DNA of 18,332 nucleotides. Origin: Azonexaceae bacterium (GTDB lineage: Bacteria > Pseudomonadota > Gammaproteobacteria > Burkholderiales > Rhodocyclaceae). A program made the translations under genes and the position numbers. Position 1 is the stretch's first letter. Every line of letters starts with the position of its first letter. The notes beneath the pieces are model-generated. The model ran no database searches, was not told the origin of the DNA, and saw nothing but the letters and a program-made list of their open reading frames with translations. The stretch is taken from the NCBI GenBank assembly GCA_009469685.1, contig SSTA01000223.1, positions 1 through 18,332 of the forward strand, read 5' to 3'. Positions 6,766 to 14,742 of the stretch are shown here, piece after piece.

Positions 6766-7662
6766 TCAGGCCTGCCCGTGGAAGGCCTCGAGCATTTCAT
6801 CGATGAACTCGGGCAATGCGTCATCGCGAAGCCCGAGCTCCGCAAGAACATCGTCTTGAATCCGGTCCCACTCGGTATTCTTGACGTGCTGATCGCGGTA
6901 GAAGATTTCGATCGCCAGTTGCAGGATCGCCACCATCGTCCGCGAAGCGTGCATCCCTAGGGACGACATGTCGTGGTGGTAGCGAATCGCGTCGCAGATG
7001 AATTCCGGCAGATTCCAGTGGCGTGCGACGATGTAGCCGACGACGCAGTGATCGGCGCTGAATTTCTTGTCCTCATCGGCCAGATCGATCCAGCGGCCGG
7101 GCTCGCCAAGGTGCATCTCTTTGCAGTAGGTGGTGAACCGCTGCATCAGGAGGGGAACGCCACAGTCGTGGAAAATGCCGGCCAGGAACGCCTGGTCGGG
7201 AAAGACGTTGCACACGGCAATGCGCTCGTCGGCGATCAACATGGCCAGTTGCGCCACCGCCTGGGAACGGGTCCAGAATGCCTCGTAGGCGCGCGGATTC
7301 TGCTTGACGACCGCGATGCTCGCCAGGGCAATGGCCTGAACGAGATTGAAGGTCTGCCTCACCCCTACGGCATGGAGGATTTCCTCCACCGAAGCAAAGG
7401 GCTGGTGCTGCTTATAAGCGGCGCTGCCGACGACCTTGAAGAGCATGGCCGAGAGGCCGGGATCCTGATTGATCACCCGCGCCAGGACCCGCAGGTCGAA
7501 TTCCTTGCGCATCAAATGCTGCCGCAGTTCCTCGAGAACCCTGGGTTGCGGGGGAATATTCACGCCCCTTTCCAGGAGACGCTTCACTTTGGCCGCCTCG
7601 TCCGCGGTCAGACTGCGCACGGCCTCGGATACCGGAGTCGGCTTGGCGATCTCGGCACTCAT
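6766..7662 (-). CDS. HDOD domain-containing protein
   Basis: HDOD proteins are regulators with an HD-superfamily fold whose catalytic residues are usually incomplete. They are often tied to c-di-GMP, stress or motility signalling. In this 298-residue protein the HDOD domain covers about 30-235: [55 protein letters not shown], then [15 protein letters not shown] with HDCG at 165-168, and [29 protein letters not shown]. No attached GGDEF, EAL or receiver domain is present. Its ATG overlaps the glcF stop by four bases (ATGA), so it is read as part of the glycolate operon. Why a regulator of this type should be coupled to glycolate oxidase is unknown. Confidence 0.88.
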
Positions 7663-8897
7663 GCGAGCACCTCGTCGACCAGTTCGACCCAGTGGCGCAC
7701 GGGCAGGGCGCTACCGGCCTGCAGATGACTAAGACAGCCGATGTTGGCGGTAGCAATGAATTGGGGAGAACCGGTGTTGAGGGCGTTCAATTTATTGTCC
7801 CGCAGGCGTTTGGAAATTTCAGGCTGGAGGATGGAGTAAGTACCGGCGGAACCACAGCAAAGGTGAGAATCCGCCACCGGAACCAGAGTATATCCGCAGC
7901 TGACGAGCAATTCCTCAATGGTCCCGCGGACCCCAAGGCCGTGCTGAAGCGAACACGGCGAGTGGAAGGCCACTCGCCCGCGATCGCCGCGCGCCGCTTC
8001 CATCAACGGCGCGAGTTGAAGTCGCAGACCGGCGAGGACTTCAGAAGGGTCGCGACAGAGGGAGGCGATTCTGGCGGCCTTTTCAGCATAAACGGGGTCG
8101 TCGGCCAGCACATGGCCGTAATCCCGCACCTGGACGGCGCAACCCGATGCGGTGACGAGGATGGCTTCGACCCCCGCCTCGACATGGGGCCACCACGCGT
8201 CGATATTGCGCCGCATATCCGCACGACCCGCCTCCTGGTCATTGAGATGAAAACGCAGGGCGCCACAACAGCCGGCTCCGTCAGCCTCGAATAAGGCGAT
8301 TCCCAGCCGGTCCAAGATACGGGCGGCAGCGGCATTGATATTGGGCGCCAGGCTAGGCTGCACACAACCGGCCAGCGTCAGCATTCGACGGGGGTGCGCC
8401 TTGGATTGAGGCCAAGGCCGAACGACGCCAGCCGCTTCCGGCGGCAGCTTATCGGCAATCGCTCCCGGCAGCAGCGGCCGCACCAGCTGGCCAAGGCGGA
8501 CGGCCGGGCCAAACAGCCAGGGCCGGGGGAGCGTTTCGCGTAGGACGGCGCGGACGACCCTCTCCGGTCCGCGGCGGGGAAGTCCGTCTTCGACGACCCG
8601 ACGGCCAATGTCCAGAAGCTGTACGTACTCGACCCCGGAAGGACAGGTCGTCTCGCAGGAACGGCAGGTGAGGCAGCGATCCAGGTGAAGGCGCGTCTTT
8701 TCAGTGGCCGGTTTGCCCTCCAGGACTTGCTTGATGAGGTAGATGCGCCCGCGGGGACCATCAAGCTCGTCCCCCAGCAGTTGGTAGGTCGGGCAGGTCG
8801 CAGTGCAGAAGCCGCAATGCACGCACTTGCGCAATATGGCCTCGGCACGGCGGCCTTCTGCCGTGGCGGCGAATTCGGGGGCAAGGTCGGTCCGCAT
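7659..8897 (-). CDS. glcF: Glycolate oxidase iron-sulfur subunit
   Basis: GlcF passes electrons from the FAD subunits GlcD/GlcE, probably to the membrane quinone pool. It has 412 residues. Two ferredoxin-like 4Fe-4S motifs are complete: C25, C28, C31 and C35 (CVHCGFCTATCP), and C75, C78, C81 and C85 (CLTCRSCETTCP). Two CCG motifs of the heterodisulfide reductase-like domains follow at 210-212 and 347-349. There is no transmembrane segment. It starts three bases after the glcE stop and overlaps the HDOD gene by four bases at its end. Related lactate oxidase subunits (LutA type) are shorter or differently arranged. Association with glcD and glcE supports glycolate. Confidence 0.94.
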   Translation of the reverse strand: MRTDLAPEFAATAEGRRAEAILRKCVHCGFCTATCPTYQLLGDELDGPRGRIYLIKQVLEGKPATEKTRLHLDRCLTCRSCETTCPSGVEYVQLLDIGRRVVEDGLPRRGPERVVRAVLRETLPRPWLFGPAVRLGQLVRPLLPGAIADKLPPEAAGVVRPWPQSKAHPRRMLTLAGCVQPSLAPNINAAAARILDRLGIALFEADGAGCCGALRFHLNDQEAGRADMRRNIDAWWPHVEAGVEAILVTASGCAVQVRDYGHVLADDPVYAEKAARIASLCRDPSEVLAGLRLQLAPLMEAARGDRGRVAFHSPCSLQHGLGVRGTIEELLVSCGYTLVPVADSHLCCGSAGTYSILQPEISKRLRDNKLNALNTGSPQFIATANIGCLSHLQAGSALPVRHWVELVDEVLA

Positions 8898-8900
8898 GAT

Positions 8901-9995
8901 TCAGAGCTCGGCGTAGAGGCGCCCCGGGTTGAATATCCCCGAGGGGTCGAACACGCGCTTGACCCGCCGGTGAAGTTCCAGCACCGCCGGCGCAGGAACC
9001 GCAAAGGCGCCGACCCGACAACGCAGGGACTCGGGCGCCCGGAAGAGCACTGCGTGGCCCCCCGCCTCCGCGGCAGCCGCACGCACCGCCCCCGGATCGA
9101 TTTCCCCGGACAGCCAGCGCTGGCCGCCTCCCCACTCGAAAGGCCCCGATTTCGCAAGACCCAGCGGCGGTGTCGTCTTTGGCAAGGCCAGCCGCCACAG
9201 GATTTCGCCCGCGTAAGCCGGATGGCGCTGCTCCCGCACCGAAGGCCAGAAACCGCCGTCGGCAAGCGCTTCGCCCCCCAGCCTCGCCCGGGCGGCAAGG
9301 ACAGCGGGCTCCGCTCCGGACAGACGCAATACCAAGCGTCCCTCATGCCAGAACGACGCTGATATGGGCAGCGGTTGCCCGGCCCAACGGCCCAGAGCGC
9401 CCAGAGCGGCCGCTTCGCCCATCTCGAAGGCCAGGCTCAGTTCGCGCTGGGGCCGCGGCAAGACCTTGAGGGTGACTTCGGCGATCAGCCCGAGCGTTCC
9501 CATACTGCCGGCCATGAGTCGAGAGACGTCGTAACCGGCGACGTTCTTCATCACCTGGCCGCCGAATTCAAGAACGCGACCGCTGCCGTCGACGAGTTTG
9601 ACGCCGAGGATGAAATCCCGCACCCCGCCGACCTGCTGTCTCCGGGGACCGGCAAGGCCCGCGGCCACCGCACCGCCGACGGTGGCGACGCTTTCCCCCG
9701 GATTCTCCGGCAATCCGCACCCGAACTGGGCCGGCGGCTCGAAGGCGAGCATTTGCCCCCGCTCGGCAAGAACGGACTCGACTTCCGCGAGCCGAGTGCC
9801 GCAACGGGCGGTAACGTACAGTTCGGTGGGCTCGTAGGCGACAACGCCGCAATAGCCCCCGGTATCGAGCACTTGCCCGGCCAGCATGCCGCCGTAGAAA
9901 TCCTTGCTACCGCCACCGCGCACGCGCAGGGGAGCACGCTCGCTCGCTGCGGTAGCCACCGCGTCCCGCAGGGCGTCGAGCGTCGTAGGGCGCAT
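8901..9995 (-). CDS. glcE: Glycolate oxidase FAD-binding subunit
   Basis: GlcE is the second flavin subunit of the GlcDEF glycolate dehydrogenase. The start chosen, MRPTTLDALRDAV, shares one base with the glcD stop (TGATG) and gives 364 residues. An upstream in-frame ATG would run 49 codons back into glcD and adds no family-like sequence. The PCMH-type FAD domain shows RVRGGGSK (24-31), TVGGAVAAG (105-113), GPRRQQVGGVRDFILG (116-131) and KNVAGYDVSRLMAGSMGTLG (150-169). The C-terminus ends RVFDPSGIFNPGRLYAEL, normal for the family. Translation is almost certainly coupled to glcD. Confidence 0.94.
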   Translation of the reverse strand: MRPTTLDALRDAVATAASERAPLRVRGGGSKDFYGGMLAGQVLDTGGYCGVVAYEPTELYVTARCGTRLAEVESVLAERGQMLAFEPPAQFGCGLPENPGESVATVGGAVAAGLAGPRRQQVGGVRDFILGVKLVDGSGRVLEFGGQVMKNVAGYDVSRLMAGSMGTLGLIAEVTLKVLPRPQRELSLAFEMGEAAALGALGRWAGQPLPISASFWHEGRLVLRLSGAEPAVLAARARLGGEALADGGFWPSVREQRHPAYAGEILWRLALPKTTPPLGLAKSGPFEWGGGQRWLSGEIDPGAVRAAAAEAGGHAVLFRAPESLRCRVGAFAVPAPAVLELHRRVKRVFDPSGIFNPGRLYAEL

Positions 9996-11476
9996 CAGAA
10001 TCGTTCCAGGTCGGGGAATTTCAAGTCCCCCCCATGGACATGCATGCGCCCGTACTCGGCACAGCGATGCAGGCTGGGCACCGCCTTGCCCGGATTGAGC
10101 AGCCCGCGTTCGTCGAAGGCCGCCTTCAGCCGGTGGAAGCACTCCAGTTCCGGCTCACCATACTGGGCGCACATCTGGTTGATCTTCTCGATGCCGACCC
10201 CGTGCTCGCCCGTGATCGACCCTCCGAAAGCCACCGACAGTTCCAGGATCTCGGCGCCGAAGGCGTCCGCCCGTTCCCAGTCGCCAGGCTTGGCGGCGTC
10301 GTACATGATGAGCGGGTGCAGGTTGCCGTCCCCGGCGTGAAAGACATTGGCGCAGCGCAGCCCATGCTTGGTCTCCAAGGCAGCGATGGCGGTGAGCATC
10401 TCGGCCAGGTGACGACGCGGAATGGTGCCGTCCATGCAGTAGTAATCCGGGGTGATGCGGCCCACCGCCGGGAAAGCGGCCTTGCGCCCTGCCCAGAAGC
10501 GCAGGCGCTCGGCTTCGGTCTCCGACACCCGAATACCCCGGGCACCGCTCGCCTCCAACACCCTTCTTACCCGGGCAATCTCATCCGCCACTTCATCCGG
10601 GGTACCGTCGGACTCGCAGAGCAGGATGGCCGCGGCGTCCAGATCATAGCCCGCCCGCACGAAGGGCTCGACTGCCGCAGTCGCCGCCTTGTCCATCATC
10701 TCCAACCCGGCAGGGATGATGCCGGCTGCGATGATGGCGGCGACCGCCTCGCCAGCCCGAGCCACATCGTCGAAGGAAGCCATCGCCACCCGCGCAAGTT
10801 CTGGCTTGGGCACCAATTTCACCGTCACTTCGGTGGCGACGGCAAGCATGCCCTCCGAACCGACCAGGAGCGCCAAGAGGTCATACCCTGGGGCATCGGG
10901 GGCGCAGGAGCCTATCTCCAGCACTTCACCGGCAATGGTGACGACCCGCAGGGAGACGACGTTGTGCACGGTCAGCCCGTACTTGAGGCAATGAACGCCC
11001 CCCGAATTTTCCGCCACATTGCCACCCAGGGTGCAGGCGATCTGCGACGAAGGATCGGGCGCGTAATAGAGACCGTAGGGGGCTGCCGCTTCGGATACTG
11101 CAAGATTGCGCACCCCTGGCTGCACCACCGCCAGGCACGCGGCCGGATCGACTCTGAGAATCCTGTTGAAGCGAGCGAGCGAAAGGACGACGCCTTGGGG
11201 ATGGGGCATGGCTCCCCCGGAGAGGCCGGTGCCTGCACCCCGGGCTACCACCGGGACACCAAGGCGATGGCAGATGCCCAGCACGTCGCGCACCTGCTGT
11301 TCGGTCTCCGGCAGGCAAACCGCCAGCGGTAACGCTCGATAGGCGGTCAGGCCATCGCATTCGTAGGGACGCAAATCCTCGGGATCGGTGAGCAGAGAGT
11401 GGGGCGGCAATACCGCGGACAGGCTTCTGTAAGCGGCTTCCCGGTCAGTTTCGAAAACCCTGTCTTCCCCGCCCAT
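9995..11476 (-). CDS. glcD: Glycolate oxidase catalytic subunit
   Basis: GlcD is an FAD-linked oxidase that converts glycolate to glyoxylate with GlcE and GlcF. It has 493 residues. The FAD-binding domain contains VARGAGTGLSGGA (77-89) and PDPSSQIACTLGGN (140-153) with NVAENSGG. The C-terminal oxidase domain carries FHAGDGNLHP and the GEHGVGIEK motif before the final NPGKAVPS segment. GGGAGG lies a few bases before the ATG. It starts 15 bases after the glycerate 2-kinase stop, so both are in one operon. D-lactate dehydrogenases share the fold, and the glcE/glcF neighbours decide for glycolate. No glcC-type regulator is present in the window. Confidence 0.95.
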   Translation of the reverse strand: MGGEDRVFETDREAAYRSLSAVLPPHSLLTDPEDLRPYECDGLTAYRALPLAVCLPETEQQVRDVLGICHRLGVPVVARGAGTGLSGGAMPHPQGVVLSLARFNRILRVDPAACLAVVQPGVRNLAVSEAAAPYGLYYAPDPSSQIACTLGGNVAENSGGVHCLKYGLTVHNVVSLRVVTIAGEVLEIGSCAPDAPGYDLLALLVGSEGMLAVATEVTVKLVPKPELARVAMASFDDVARAGEAVAAIIAAGIIPAGLEMMDKAATAAVEPFVRAGYDLDAAAILLCESDGTPDEVADEIARVRRVLEASGARGIRVSETEAERLRFWAGRKAAFPAVGRITPDYYCMDGTIPRRHLAEMLTAIAALETKHGLRCANVFHAGDGNLHPLIMYDAAKPGDWERADAFGAEILELSVAFGGSITGEHGVGIEKINQMCAQYGEPELECFHRLKAAFDERGLLNPGKAVPSLHRCAEYGRMHVHGGDLKFPDLERF

Positions 11477-11491: not shown

Positions 11492-12754
11492 CTATTCTAC
11501 CCCGACCAGGATGGCCCGGAAGTCGTTCACGTTGGTCCGCGTGGGACCGGTGACCAGCAGGTCACCGAGGGCTGCGAAGAATCCCCAGGCGTCATTGGCG
11601 TCCAGGGCGGCCCGGGGATCGAGCCCGGCGACCCGAGCGCGGGCCAAGGTATTCGGGGCGACGAAGGCGCCCGCATTGTCCTCGCTTCCGTCGATGCCGT
11701 CGCTGTCAGCCGCCAAGGCATGGATTCCGGGGGCTCCGCCAAGCCCTAGGGCCAGGCCGAGGAGGAACTCGGTGTTGCGGCCGCCGCGGCCGCCGCCCCG
11801 CACTGTGACGGTCGTCTCGCCACCGGAGAGCAGGACGCAAGGCGCGGGCGCCGGGTCCCTGTAGCGGGCACAGGAGAGGGCCACGCCGGCCAGGGCGCGG
11901 CCCAATTCCCGCGCCTCCCCCTCCAGGGCGTCCCCGAGAATCAACGGCTGCAGACCGCGTTCCCGGGCTCTTGCGGCGGCGGCTTCCAGCATCTGACGCG
12001 GGCTTGCGATCAGACGGAATTCACTCGCCGCCAACCGCGGATCGCCTGGCTTGGGGGTTTCCAGTTCCCCCGAGGCGAGGGCATCGCGCAACGACGAATT
12101 CACGGAAATCCTATGGCGGTCGAGCAGCGCCAAGGCATCCGCGCAGGTAGTCGGATCCGCCACCGTCGGACCCGAAGCGATGACCGCCGGATCGTCGCCG
12201 GGAACGTCGGAGATGGCGAGAGTCAGCACGCGGGCCGGCCAAGCCGCCAGGGCGAGTCGGCCTCCCTTCACGGCCGAGAGGTGCTTGCGTACGCAATTGA
12301 TCTCGTCGATGGCGGCGCCACTCTTGAGCAGGGCGGTGGTAATGGCTTGCTTCGCGTCCAGGGTGACCCCCTCCGCTGGCGCAGCCAGAAGGGCGGAACC
12401 GCCACCGGAGGCGAGAAAAAGCACCTGGTCCGTTTCGCTCAGGCCGGAAACCTGTGCGAGGATGCGGCGGGCGGCAAGCGTCCCTGCCTCGTCGGGTACC
12501 GGGTGGGCGGCTTCCAGGACCTCGATGGTCCGGCAGGGCACGCCATGCCCGTAGCGGGTCACCACGAGACCCTCAATTGGCCCCGGCCACGAATCCTCCA
12601 CGGCTCGCGCCATAGCCGCTGCGGCCTTGCCGGCGCCGACCACGATCAAGCGGCCCCTTCCGGCTTCCGGCAGTTGATCGCGAAGGCAGCCGGCAGGATC
12701 GGAAGCCGCCAGCCCGGCGTTGAACAAATCCTTGAGGATTTGTCGTGCATCCAT
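11492..12754 (-). CDS. ttuD: Glycerate 2-kinase (MOFRL/DUF4147 family)
   Basis: This enzyme phosphorylates D-glycerate to 2-phosphoglycerate, feeding C2-derived carbon into lower glycolysis. The start MDARQILKDL has GGGAG seven bases upstream and gives 420 residues. Upstream in-frame ATGs (12772, 12853) have no ribosome binding site and would run across the putative operator at 12783-12796. Visible signatures are VVGAGKA (38-44), SGGGSAL (116-122), the CVRKHLSAVKGG stretch (154-165), SDVPGDD (182-188), and the C-terminal MOFRL part GRGGRNTEFLL ... ALAADSDGIDGSEDNAGA. It is the first gene of the glc operon. The symbol could also be gckA, since naming varies for this family. Confidence 0.92.
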   Translation of the reverse strand: MDARQILKDLFNAGLAASDPAGCLRDQLPEAGRGRLIVVGAGKAAAAMARAVEDSWPGPIEGLVVTRYGHGVPCRTIEVLEAAHPVPDEAGTLAARRILAQVSGLSETDQVLFLASGGGSALLAAPAEGVTLDAKQAITTALLKSGAAIDEINCVRKHLSAVKGGRLALAAWPARVLTLAISDVPGDDPAVIASGPTVADPTTCADALALLDRHRISVNSSLRDALASGELETPKPGDPRLAASEFRLIASPRQMLEAAAARARERGLQPLILGDALEGEARELGRALAGVALSCARYRDPAPAPCVLLSGGETTVTVRGGGRGGRNTEFLLGLALGLGGAPGIHALAADSDGIDGSEDNAGAFVAPNTLARARVAGLDPRAALDANDAWGFFAALGDLLVTGPTRTNVNDFRAILVGVE

Positions 12755-12775
12755 GGAAAAACTCCCAGGCATTGG

Positions 12776-12781
12776 ACTATG
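12776..12781 (-). promoter_or_regulatory. Possible -10 element of the ttuD-glc operon
   Basis: On the minus strand CATAGT lies 21 bases before the ttuD ATG and directly next to the FNR-type box. The -35 region (around 12799-12804) is a poor GC-rich match. If this -10 is used, the box falls between -35 and -10, where a bound protein would block RNA polymerase. Confidence 0.35.
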
Positions 12782-12782
12782 C

Positions 12783-12796
12783 TTGATATCAATCAA
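12783..12796. promoter_or_regulatory. FNR/Anr-type binding site
   Basis: TTGAT-ATCA-ATCAA matches the FNR-family consensus TTGATnnnnATCAA at all ten defined positions. Flanking bases extend the symmetry (GC before, GC after). The centre, 12789.5, is about 41 bases before the start expected from the -10-like TAATCT at 12818-12823. This is the class II activating position for the hemerythrin gene. DNR/NnrR regulators use similar boxes, so the exact regulator is uncertain. Confidence 0.85.
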
Positions 12797-12817
12797 GCGC
12801 CCCGCTGGCGGGACGGG

Positions 12818-12823
12818 TAATCT
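12818..12823 (+). promoter_or_regulatory. Probable -10 element of the hemerythrin promoter
   Basis: TAATCT lies where a class II FNR-dependent promoter would need it: a start at about 12830 puts the box centre at about -41. There is no recognisable -35 (GC-rich), as expected for an activator-dependent promoter. The transcript would have a leader of about 22 bases before the ATG at 12853. Confidence 0.5.
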
Positions 12824-12852
12824 GGCCGTTTCAATTACGAGGCATCGCCCCA

Positions 12853-13338
12853 ATGAATGATCGCGAACTCTTCGCCTGGTCCGACAGTTACAACGTCGGC
12901 ATCCAGGAGGTGGACGAGCAGCATCAGGTGCTCGTCTCCCTGCTCAATCAATTGCACGAAGCCATCCGCGAGCACCACGGCAAGGCGACTTCACGGGAGA
13001 TTCTCGACCGCCTGGCCGAGTATACCCGGACCCATTTCCTACTCGAAGAAAGCCTCATGCGGCTCACCCACTATCCCGGTTTCGATTTCCACAAGCAGCA
13101 GCACGAGGAATTGATCCACCAGGTGAGGGACCTCCAGCACAAGCTGGACCACGAGAATGCCGCCATCACCTTCGAGTTGCTCCATTTCCTCAAGGTCTGG
13201 CTCACCCAGCACATCAACGAAAGCGACAAGAGGTTCGGGGCCTTCTTCGAGACTGCTGGCCTCAGCCAATACTCCACGTGGTCGAAAGAGGTCGAGACCA
13301 CCATGAAGAAGAAGAAATGGTGGTGGAAATTCTGGTGA
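12853..13338 (+). CDS. Bacteriohemerythrin
   Basis: This is an oxygen-binding non-haem di-iron protein. Bacterial members are thought to carry, store or sense O2. The 161-residue protein has the complete ligand set with canonical spacing: H24 (VDEQH), H61 and E65 (HFLLEE), H80 and H84 (HKQQH), H120 and D125 (HINESD). The four-helix domain ends at about 135. An unusual tail follows, ending in a lysine run and KKWWWKFW, which suggests membrane-surface attachment (inference). A GAGG lies about ten bases before the ATG. The gene diverges from the glycolate operon with a perfect FNR-type box between them. Its stop codon touches the stop codon of the convergent hyi gene. Confidence 0.95.
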   Translation: MNDRELFAWSDSYNVGIQEVDEQHQVLVSLLNQLHEAIREHHGKATSREILDRLAEYTRTHFLLEESLMRLTHYPGFDFHKQQHEELIHQVRDLQHKLDHENAAITFELLHFLKVWLTQHINESDKRFGAFFETAGLSQYSTWSKEVETTMKKKKWWWKFW

Positions 13339-14118
13339 CTAACGCCAGGGGCTGAGCCACGACAGCCCCTCTTCCGTCCCCGCCCGGGGACGGTATTCGC
13401 ATCCCACCCAGCCCGCGTACCCCAGTTCGTCCAGAAGCTTAAACAGGCGCCCGTAGTCGGCTTCGCCGCTGCCGGGTTCATGGCGCCCGGGCAAGTCCGC
13501 CACCTGAACATGTCCGATTTCCGGCAAGCGTCTCCTCAATGTCAGTCGCGGATCGTCTCCCATCACCAGAGCGTGGTAGATATCGTACTGGACACGCAGA
13601 TTGGGACGGCCGATTTCCTCGGCCAGCGCAAAGGCGCAGGCCGGGGTATCGAGCCAGTAGCCAGGCATGTCGATGCGGGTATTGATGGCCTCGATCATCA
13701 CCGTCGCCCCCAGGGTCGCCGCTCGGTCGGCGGCATGGCGGAGGTTTTCGACGTAGGTGGCGCGGACGCGCTCCGCGGGCACGCCTGGCGGAGTCAGGCC
13801 GGCAAGGCAATGGAGTCTCCGACACCCGAGAACGCGAGCGTATTCGAGAGCCGTTTCCACCCCGGCAGCGAATTCTTCGCCGCGGGCCGGGTCGCAAGCC
13901 AAGCCCCGCTCCCCTGCTGCCCAGTCGCCGGGGGGAAAATTGAACAGCACCATCTCGAGACCGCTCGCCGCCAGCCAGCGGGCGATTTCGACGGCCGGCC
14001 ACTCATAGGGAAAGAGAAATTCGACGCCCCGGAAACCCGCCCGAGCGGCCCGGGCGAAGCGCTCCGGGAAGGGCACGTCGGCAAACAGAAAACTCAGATT
14101 GGCGGCAAAACGGGGCAT
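13339..14118 (-). CDS. hyi: Hydroxypyruvate isomerase
   Basis: Hyi interconverts hydroxypyruvate and tartronate semialdehyde in the glyoxylate-to-glycerate route. The start ATG at 14118 (MPRFAANLSFLF) gives 259 residues and aligns with the E. coli Hyi start. A GTG two codons earlier (14124) is also in frame, and neither start has a clear ribosome binding site. The sugar-isomerase TIM barrel shows FRGVEFLFPYE (29-39), GDWAAGERG (64-72), catalytic E143 (IEAIN), D179/H182 (QYDIYH) and catalytic E241 (GCEYRP). The reductase gene often found beside hyi is missing. It stands alone, convergent with hemerythrin with zero bases between stops. A relative such as 2-oxo-tetronate isomerase (OtnI) cannot be excluded, but close resemblance to Hyi and the glc/ttuD neighbours favour Hyi. 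Confidence 0.88.
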   Translation of the reverse strand: MPRFAANLSFLFADVPFPERFARAARAGFRGVEFLFPYEWPAVEIARWLAASGLEMVLFNFPPGDWAAGERGLACDPARGEEFAAGVETALEYARVLGCRRLHCLAGLTPPGVPAERVRATYVENLRHAADRAATLGATVMIEAINTRIDMPGYWLDTPACAFALAEEIGRPNLRVQYDIYHALVMGDDPRLTLRRRLPEIGHVQVADLPGRHEPGSGEADYGRLFKLLDELGYAGWVGCEYRPRAGTEEGLSWLSPWR

Positions 14119-14149
14119 AGGCACGGGGCTGGGTCAAACGCCCGGAAAG

Positions 14150-14155
14150 TATAAT
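14150..14155 (+). promoter_or_regulatory. Candidate -10 in the hyi / adenosyltransferase gap
   Basis: The plus strand has TATAAT, and the overlapping minus strand has TATACT (14148-14153), in the roughly 60-base divergent gap. Neither has a good -35 at 16-18 bases. Each may serve as the -10 for the gene on its side, competing for polymerase. Confidence 0.4.
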
Positions 14156-14178
14156 CCGCCAATCTTGGAGGAATCCCG

Positions 14179-14742
14179 ATGAACGAGCGCCGCGGCAACC
14201 GCCTTTCGAAAATCGTCACCCGAACCGGTGACGCCGGAACGACCGGTCTCGGCGATGGCAGCCGGACGGGCAAGGACAGTCTCAGGATCGATGCCATCGG
14301 CGAAGTGGACGAGCTCAATTCCGCCCTCGGCGTGTTGCTCGCCGAAGACCTCCCGCCCACGGTCCGGGAAGCCCTGACGGCAGTCCAGCACGATCTTTTC
14401 GACCTTGGCGGCGAACTTTGTCTGCCGGGCACTGCGCTGGTCAAGGAAGAGCAAGTATCCCGCCTGGAGACCCAGGCCGAAAATTTCAACGCCCCGCTGG
14501 GCAAACTCAAGGAATTCATTCTTCCTGGCGGCTCGCGGGCCGCCGCGCTCGCCCATTTAACCCGTACCGTCTGTCGCCGCGCCGAGCGCGCGGTGGTCAG
14601 GCTGCACGCTGCGGAGCCGGTCTCGGAAACCACTCGTCGCTATCTGAATCGGCTTTCGGACCTGCTGTTCATCCTCGGCCGCCACCTGAATCACGCAGTG
14701 GGGCAGGGGGATGTGCTGTGGCGGCGAACGGAACCCAATTGA
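14179..14742 (+). CDS. Cob(I)yrinic acid a,c-diamide / cob(I)alamin adenosyltransferase, PduO type
   Basis: This enzyme transfers the adenosyl group of ATP to cob(I)alamin, making the B12 coenzyme. The 187-residue protein has the PduO/MMAB signatures: TRTGDAGTTGLGDG (14-27, ATP-binding N-terminus), GEVDELNS (41-48), FILPGGS (113-119), CRRAER (132-137) and RYLNRLSDLLF (154-164). GGAGG lies seven bases before the ATG. No cobalamin riboswitch fits in the short gap upstream. Its stop lies four bases from the stop of the convergent regulator gene, inside a 10-base palindrome. No other B12 genes are in the window. Confidence 0.93.
   Translation: MNERRGNRLSKIVTRTGDAGTTGLGDGSRTGKDSLRIDAIGEVDELNSALGVLLAEDLPPTVREALTAVQHDLFDLGGELCLPGTALVKEEQVSRLETQAENFNAPLGKLKEFILPGGSRAAALAHLTRTVCRRAERAVVRLHAAEPVSETTRRYLNRLSDLLFILGRHLNHAVGQGDVLWRRTEPN

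Follow-up and report, generated by a model that had tools for sequence, protein, structure and literature searches.

An FNR/Anr-type box between two divergent genes

The window analysed here, by which we mean the whole stretch of 18,332 bases, carries a palindromic FNR/Anr-type box in the 98-bp gap that separates a bacteriohemerythrin gene from the divergent ttuD-glcDEF run (Table 1). Such a placement raises the question of which neighbour the box serves and which regulator would use it. The reading that we favour, with a probability of about 0.86, is that the box is a site of an FNR/Anr-type regulator, a putative class II activator of hemerythrin at low oxygen.

The first-pass annotation had claimed that this box matches the FNR/Anr consensus in full. 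On rescanning, TTGATATCAATCAA indeed showed 0 mismatches to TTGATNNNNATCAA and was the sole perfect match among the 18,332 bases; the FNR consensus that belongs to a class II FNR-activated promoter is thus present here in its perfect form. One might suppose that the box is a chance palindrome devoid of function, given that 17 of 2,000 shuffles of the whole window contained a perfect box somewhere. When only the 98-bp intergenic region was shuffled with its dinucleotides preserved, a perfect box appeared in 5 of 20,000 trials, and the conservation of the box and its fixed distance to a -10 element among relatives (see below) contradict a chance origin as well. With the orthologue counts, the -10 spacing and the shuffles all against it, we rejected this explanation as extremely improbable. 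Boxes with up to two mismatches were found five times in the window versus 3.5 expected, so only the perfect box deserves attention.

Table 1. Features of the window discussed in the text (positions count from the first base of the window)
Feature	Position	Strand	Remarks
glcF	7659..8897	-	NF008434 above cut-off
glcE	8901..9998	-	Translated stretch, start approximate; NF008439 above cut-off
glcD	9995..11476	-	Top NCBIfam matches are GlcD models, below cut-off; Pfam FAD domains
ttuD-type gene, glycerate 2-kinase/hydroxypyruvate reductase family	11492..12754	-	DUF4147 and MOFRL; NCBIfam glycerate 2-kinase models below cut-off
ttuD -10 proposed in the first-pass annotation, CATAGT	12776..12781	-	4/6 match to TATAAT
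FNR/Anr-type box TTGATATCAATCAA, palindromic	12783..12796	+	Consensus match; core kept upstream in 39/90 hemerythrin orthologues
Hemerythrin -10 hexamer TAATCT	12818..12823	+	Starts 21 nt past the box; TAnnnT at the same spacing in 30/39 boxed relatives
Predicted hemerythrin transcription start	12830	+	Arithmetic from the -10
Bacteriohemerythrin, 161 aa, C-terminal KKKWWWKFW	12853..13338	+	PF01814, 1.5e-13; NF033749 above cut-off
Two perfect tandem hairpins	13347-13370, 13374-13393	.	Within the hyi 3' end, just after the hemerythrin stop; without a T run
hyi, hydroxypyruvate isomerase type	13339..14124	-	PF01261; TIGR03234; NF043033
hyi/adenosyltransferase divergent intergenic stretch	14125..14178	.	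Probable site of the promoter for the hyi run (putative promoter)

Geometry of the predicted hemerythrin promoter

With the last base of the TAATCT hexamer set at -7, arithmetic places the box centre (12789.5) at -40.5 relative to the predicted start. This recalculation bears out the hexamer, the approximate start and the box centre near -41 proposed in the first-pass annotation, the start itself being a predicted one. FNR sites at directly activated Escherichia coli promoters are reported to lie at -41.5 +/-4 in 19 of 23 cases, with two sites at -40.5 (PMC3688515). A strict scan for sigma-70-like promoters between 12600 and 14300 passed none, either for hemerythrin or for ttuD, which is what one expects of an activator-dependent promoter that lacks a -35 element. 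Overall, the placement of the box where a class II site would activate hemerythrin is well supported.

Box and -10 spacing among hemerythrin orthologues

Evidence from relatives, which lies beyond the reach of a single sequence, was drawn from 297 genomes in the GTDB family to which Dechloromonas sp. H13 belongs. A hemerythrin match (E up to 1e-40) was found in 92 of them, and 90 loci were analysed, with start codons set by rule; G166 and G216, the latter with its gene truncated at the contig start, were left out. The core TTGA-N6-TCAA occurred within 300 bp upstream of hemerythrin in 39 of these 90 loci, while 200 shuffles averaged 0.275 and never exceeded 2. In a control scan over the initial 300 bp of the hemerythrin coding sequences, the core was present in 0 of 90. 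Most of the core boxes (33/39) had their centres between -80 and -55 relative to the ATG. When the full 10-base consensus was sought in the 250 bp upstream of the same 90 genes, 10 had a perfect box, 33 a box with no more than one mismatch and 43 one with no more than two.

The distance to the -10 element turned out to be fixed. In the group of 33 boxes between -80 and -55, TAnnnT lay exactly 21 nt past the box in 24, whereas no other spacing between 10 and 35 gave more than 5; after the promoters were thinned to less than 75% alike, the count was 18 of 25. All six outlying boxes, located at -104 to -180, had TAnnnT at 21 nt too. Taking all boxes together, the element was found at this spacing in 30 of 39 (the next best spacing between 10 and 35 reached 5) and was absent from nine; when the stretch downstream of the box was shuffled 2,000 times, the count never rose above 6. 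A box-to-10 spacing that stays constant while the distance to the ATG varies fits a site that positions RNA polymerase. The conserved spacing is that of a predicted class II activator aimed at hemerythrin.

The box tracks hemerythrin and not ttuD: the core was found in 6 of 13 loci with hyi, ttuD or glcD nearby and in 33 of 77 loci without glycolate neighbours. Conservation of the box within the same gene pair, which the first-pass annotation had made a point of, holds in part. Out of six relatives with hemerythrin beside ttuD, three have a core box at -65 to -70 and a fourth (L089) has one at -171, where the distance to the -10 is unchanged, but L066 retains only a weak box with three mismatches and L136 has none.

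More than half of the orthologues (51/90) lack a core box in the 300 bp before the gene, and one of these is identical to the protein that bears the name Azoarcus sp. CIB. In the wider class, where start codons were left unrefined, a hemerythrin match at 1e-33 was present in 16 of 369 genomes and a core box in 4 of these 16; none of the four had TAnnnT at 21 nt, and two had TAATAA there. Such a pattern among boxless and distant orthologues suggests that FNR-type control of hemerythrin may often have been lost or replaced.

The hemerythrin protein

Seven residues (H24, H61, E65, H80, H84, H120 and D125) are invariant in 91 of 91 aligned sequences, the window protein included. The diiron ligands of bacteriohemerythrins are described as five histidines, one glutamate and one aspartate (PMC9388753); the invariant residues fit this set, and each of them probably serves as a ligand. 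The nearest solved structures are also bacteriohemerythrins, for example 4xpx (E 2.2e-15). The exact KKKWWWKFW end was found in 28 of 91 sequences and a similar aromatic end in 78, while the last tryptophan is aligned in all 91. According to a title in the reference list of PMC12403760, a conserved C-terminal tail is required for the membrane localization of a Pseudomonas hemerythrin, and the window protein likewise ends in an aromatic tail. In one relative, a second and more distantly related hemerythrin gene (L172:7602-8078, hemerythrin-oriented; 43%) follows the first in tandem and is also antisense to hyi.

Which regulator may use the box

In all nine relatives chosen for a search, the NCBIfam FNR model NF008365 scored above its cut-off. 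The FNR frames that we read in relatives contain C-x2-C-x5-C and one later cysteine. This arrangement with a further cysteine is the pattern of an oxygen-labile cluster. Most of the relatives searched also had further matches to the Crp-Fnr family, weaker against the FNR model, so a sister regulator is possible. Since Crp-Fnr regulators such as those of the Dnr type have the TTGA-N6-TCAA core in common, the main user of the box might be another member of the superfamily, for instance a nitric oxide-sensing regulator of the Dnr type. The occurrence of TTGAC instead of TTGAT in 16 of the 33 boxes between -80 and -55, together with the weaker matches, would agree with such a user. Against it stand the perfect FNR form of the window box and the above-cut-off FNR orthologue in 9/9 relatives, and we regard it as unlikely.

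Returning to an FNR/Anr-type regulator, we infer the following course for this organism. As oxygen drops, the iron-sulphur form of FNR would bind the box at about -41 and contact RNA polymerase at the TAATCT element, thereby turning hemerythrin on from the predicted start. The oxygen-binding and probably membrane-associated hemerythrin might then aid respiration at low oxygen. If so, this assigns a low-oxygen regulator to a common hemerythrin of the family (92/297 genomes).

Control of hemerythrin by FNR/Anr is already in print. The mhr hemerythrin of Pseudomonas aeruginosa is controlled by Anr (PMC12403760), and the window resembles this system in having an oxygen-binding hemerythrin whose gene is predicted to answer to an FNR-type regulator when oxygen is low (microoxic conditions in the case of mhr). 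A nesting among glycolate genes, as in the window, is not described for mhr in that account, and the likeness is one of description, not of sequence (PMC12403760). In Candidatus Accumulibacter UW-LDO-IC, a hemerythrin gene with a predicted FNR motif, as in the window, was reported to be raised in transcript level in the anaerobic stage (PMC6446978). That account describes neither the -10 spacing nor the nesting found in the window, and here too the comparison is made by description and not by sequence (PMC6446978). Within our own sample, the L072 hemerythrin is 96% identical to P0039, a protein named Accumulibacter, and its box is at -70; judging by this identity, L072 probably encodes a hemerythrin of the Accumulibacter kind. 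What the present analysis adds to these accounts is the -10 spacing, fixed across the family, and the nesting in a glycolate operon. A search of the open-access literature for a hemerythrin gene divergent from glycolate oxidase found none, the match returned being an unrelated one.

As a side observation, perfect FNR boxes are present elsewhere in a relative, G035: three were found in about 3.4 Mb versus 0 in a reversed control (L166, L167 and L168, at about 1501-1514). One of them precedes a uroporphyrinogen methyltransferase-like gene, as judged by eye; neighbours assessed in this way add little.

Does the box also control ttuD-glcDEF?

The first-pass annotation went further and proposed a reciprocal switch, in which FNR bound to the same box would activate hemerythrin and repress ttuD-glcDEF by covering its promoter. 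The activation half agrees with the geometry described above, but the repression half, which depends on a -10 element abutting the box, is not supported. It had been noted correctly that class II activation of ttuD would require a start at 12748, inside the gene, and blocking of CATAGT had been offered instead. This hexamer is a weak match and is not in place in the four hemerythrin-ttuD relatives that have a core box, and no spacing between 0 and 35 showed a mirror-image -10 in more than 1 of 33 loci.

We also inspected the region upstream of 59 ttuD genes without hemerythrin in the locus. A box with at most one mismatch preceded 0 of 59 and a two-mismatch box 5 of 59, although some of these loci are short upstream (about 98 bases in L012) and many of the 59 genes directly follow hyi without a promoter gap of their own, which makes this a weak test for a ttuD promoter. 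What speaks for direct repression is the arithmetic of the gap: any ttuD promoter within 98 bp would overlap the hemerythrin promoter complex, and L064 and L065 have a short gap as well, with about 12 nt in L065 between the box and the apparent start codon of ttuD. With no box of at most one mismatch before the 59 ttuD genes, no mirror -10 at a fixed spacing and no conservation of CATAGT in the four relatives, we rejected the idea that the box serves ttuD and consider direct repression improbable.

A hemerythrin gene nested among glycolate genes

The layout of the locus, which the first-pass annotation had overlooked, offers another way in which the two units might be connected. In the window, hemerythrin lies antisense between hyi and ttuD-glcDEF, and its stop codon adjoins that of hyi, tail to tail. 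The identity of hyi is that of a hydroxypyruvate isomerase type by TIGR03234 (351.2 bits, just under the cut-off of 353.45) and of a 2-oxo-tetronate isomerase by NF043033, above cut-off. An adenosyltransferase gene (pduO) is divergent from hyi in 9/9 nested loci and in 20 of 25 annotated loci. For ttuD, the nearest relatives found are records of Dechloromonas, Azonexus and other Rhodocyclales, whose proteins are up to about 75% identical (78% in G035).

Among the 59 ttuD loci, 20 have hyi ahead of ttuD on one strand, with 3-27 nt between their aligned ends, and glcD comes next in all 20; the records are named Dechloromonas, Azonexus or similar. By contrast with these contiguous loci, antisense hemerythrin lies between hyi and glcD in 9 of 20 hemerythrin genomes, a non-random set of 18 best matches and two genomes picked for a nearby ttuD, and ttuD is kept in five of the nine. 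Contiguous and interrupted loci taken together indicate that one operon is found both with and without the antisense gene. By its gene order, the window presents what marks a noncontiguous operon, namely an opposite-strand gene between genes of one operon. A known example is menE-menC-MW1733-ytkD of Staphylococcus aureus, where a gene on the opposite strand likewise sits between genes of one pathway (PMC7154746). Our case differs in coming from a Gram-negative organism, in having an oxygen regulator as the putative driver and in being recognized from gene order alone.

It is tempting to suppose that the hyi transcript crosses the antisense strand of hemerythrin into ttuD-glcDEF. FNR-driven transcription of hemerythrin would then collide with it or make overlapping RNA, leading to less glycolate oxidation at low oxygen. 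FNR would touch no ttuD promoter, and the suggestion would add to activation of hemerythrin rather than replace it. Besides the gene orders just described, the abutting stop codons speak for such read-through, as do the published cases of noncontiguous operons under reciprocal control (PMC7154746). Two scans, both simple ones, agree with it: no terminator-like site was found in 12600-14300 (shuffle mean 1.7), and the second scan found no terminator in the window, L064, L065 or L136. The latter scan did find one terminator-like hairpin in L066, in the gap that separates hemerythrin from ttuD and on the strand of ttuD, which argues the other way. In addition, ttuD may have its own promoter in the 98-bp gap, Rho may end the hyi transcript, and the 20 genomes were not a random sample. 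On balance, we offer read-through as a tentative possibility, with the odds against it.

A slightly bolder and somewhat more doubtful extension is that, in several genera of the family, an FNR-driven hemerythrin has been placed or kept antisense within hyi-ttuD-glcDEF as an oxygen-gated noncontiguous operon. Low oxygen would turn the oxygen-binding protein on, and opposing transcription would turn an oxygen-linked carbon pathway down. If the nesting does couple both transcripts, it would provide a clean natural comparison, because close relatives have the operon without the antisense gene.

Several minor observations concern the same locus. The tandem hairpins past the hemerythrin stop (Table 1) were considered as an intrinsic terminator and rejected, having no T run and no support from the terminator scan; they are not perfect stems in the three relatives compared. 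An HDOD-domain gene (6766-7662) directly follows glcF, as it does in several relatives, and may belong to the glycolate operon. Finally, in one relative, a gene resembling GntR/FadR-type regulators by eye (L174:7645-8493) takes the place of ttuD between hemerythrin and glcD.
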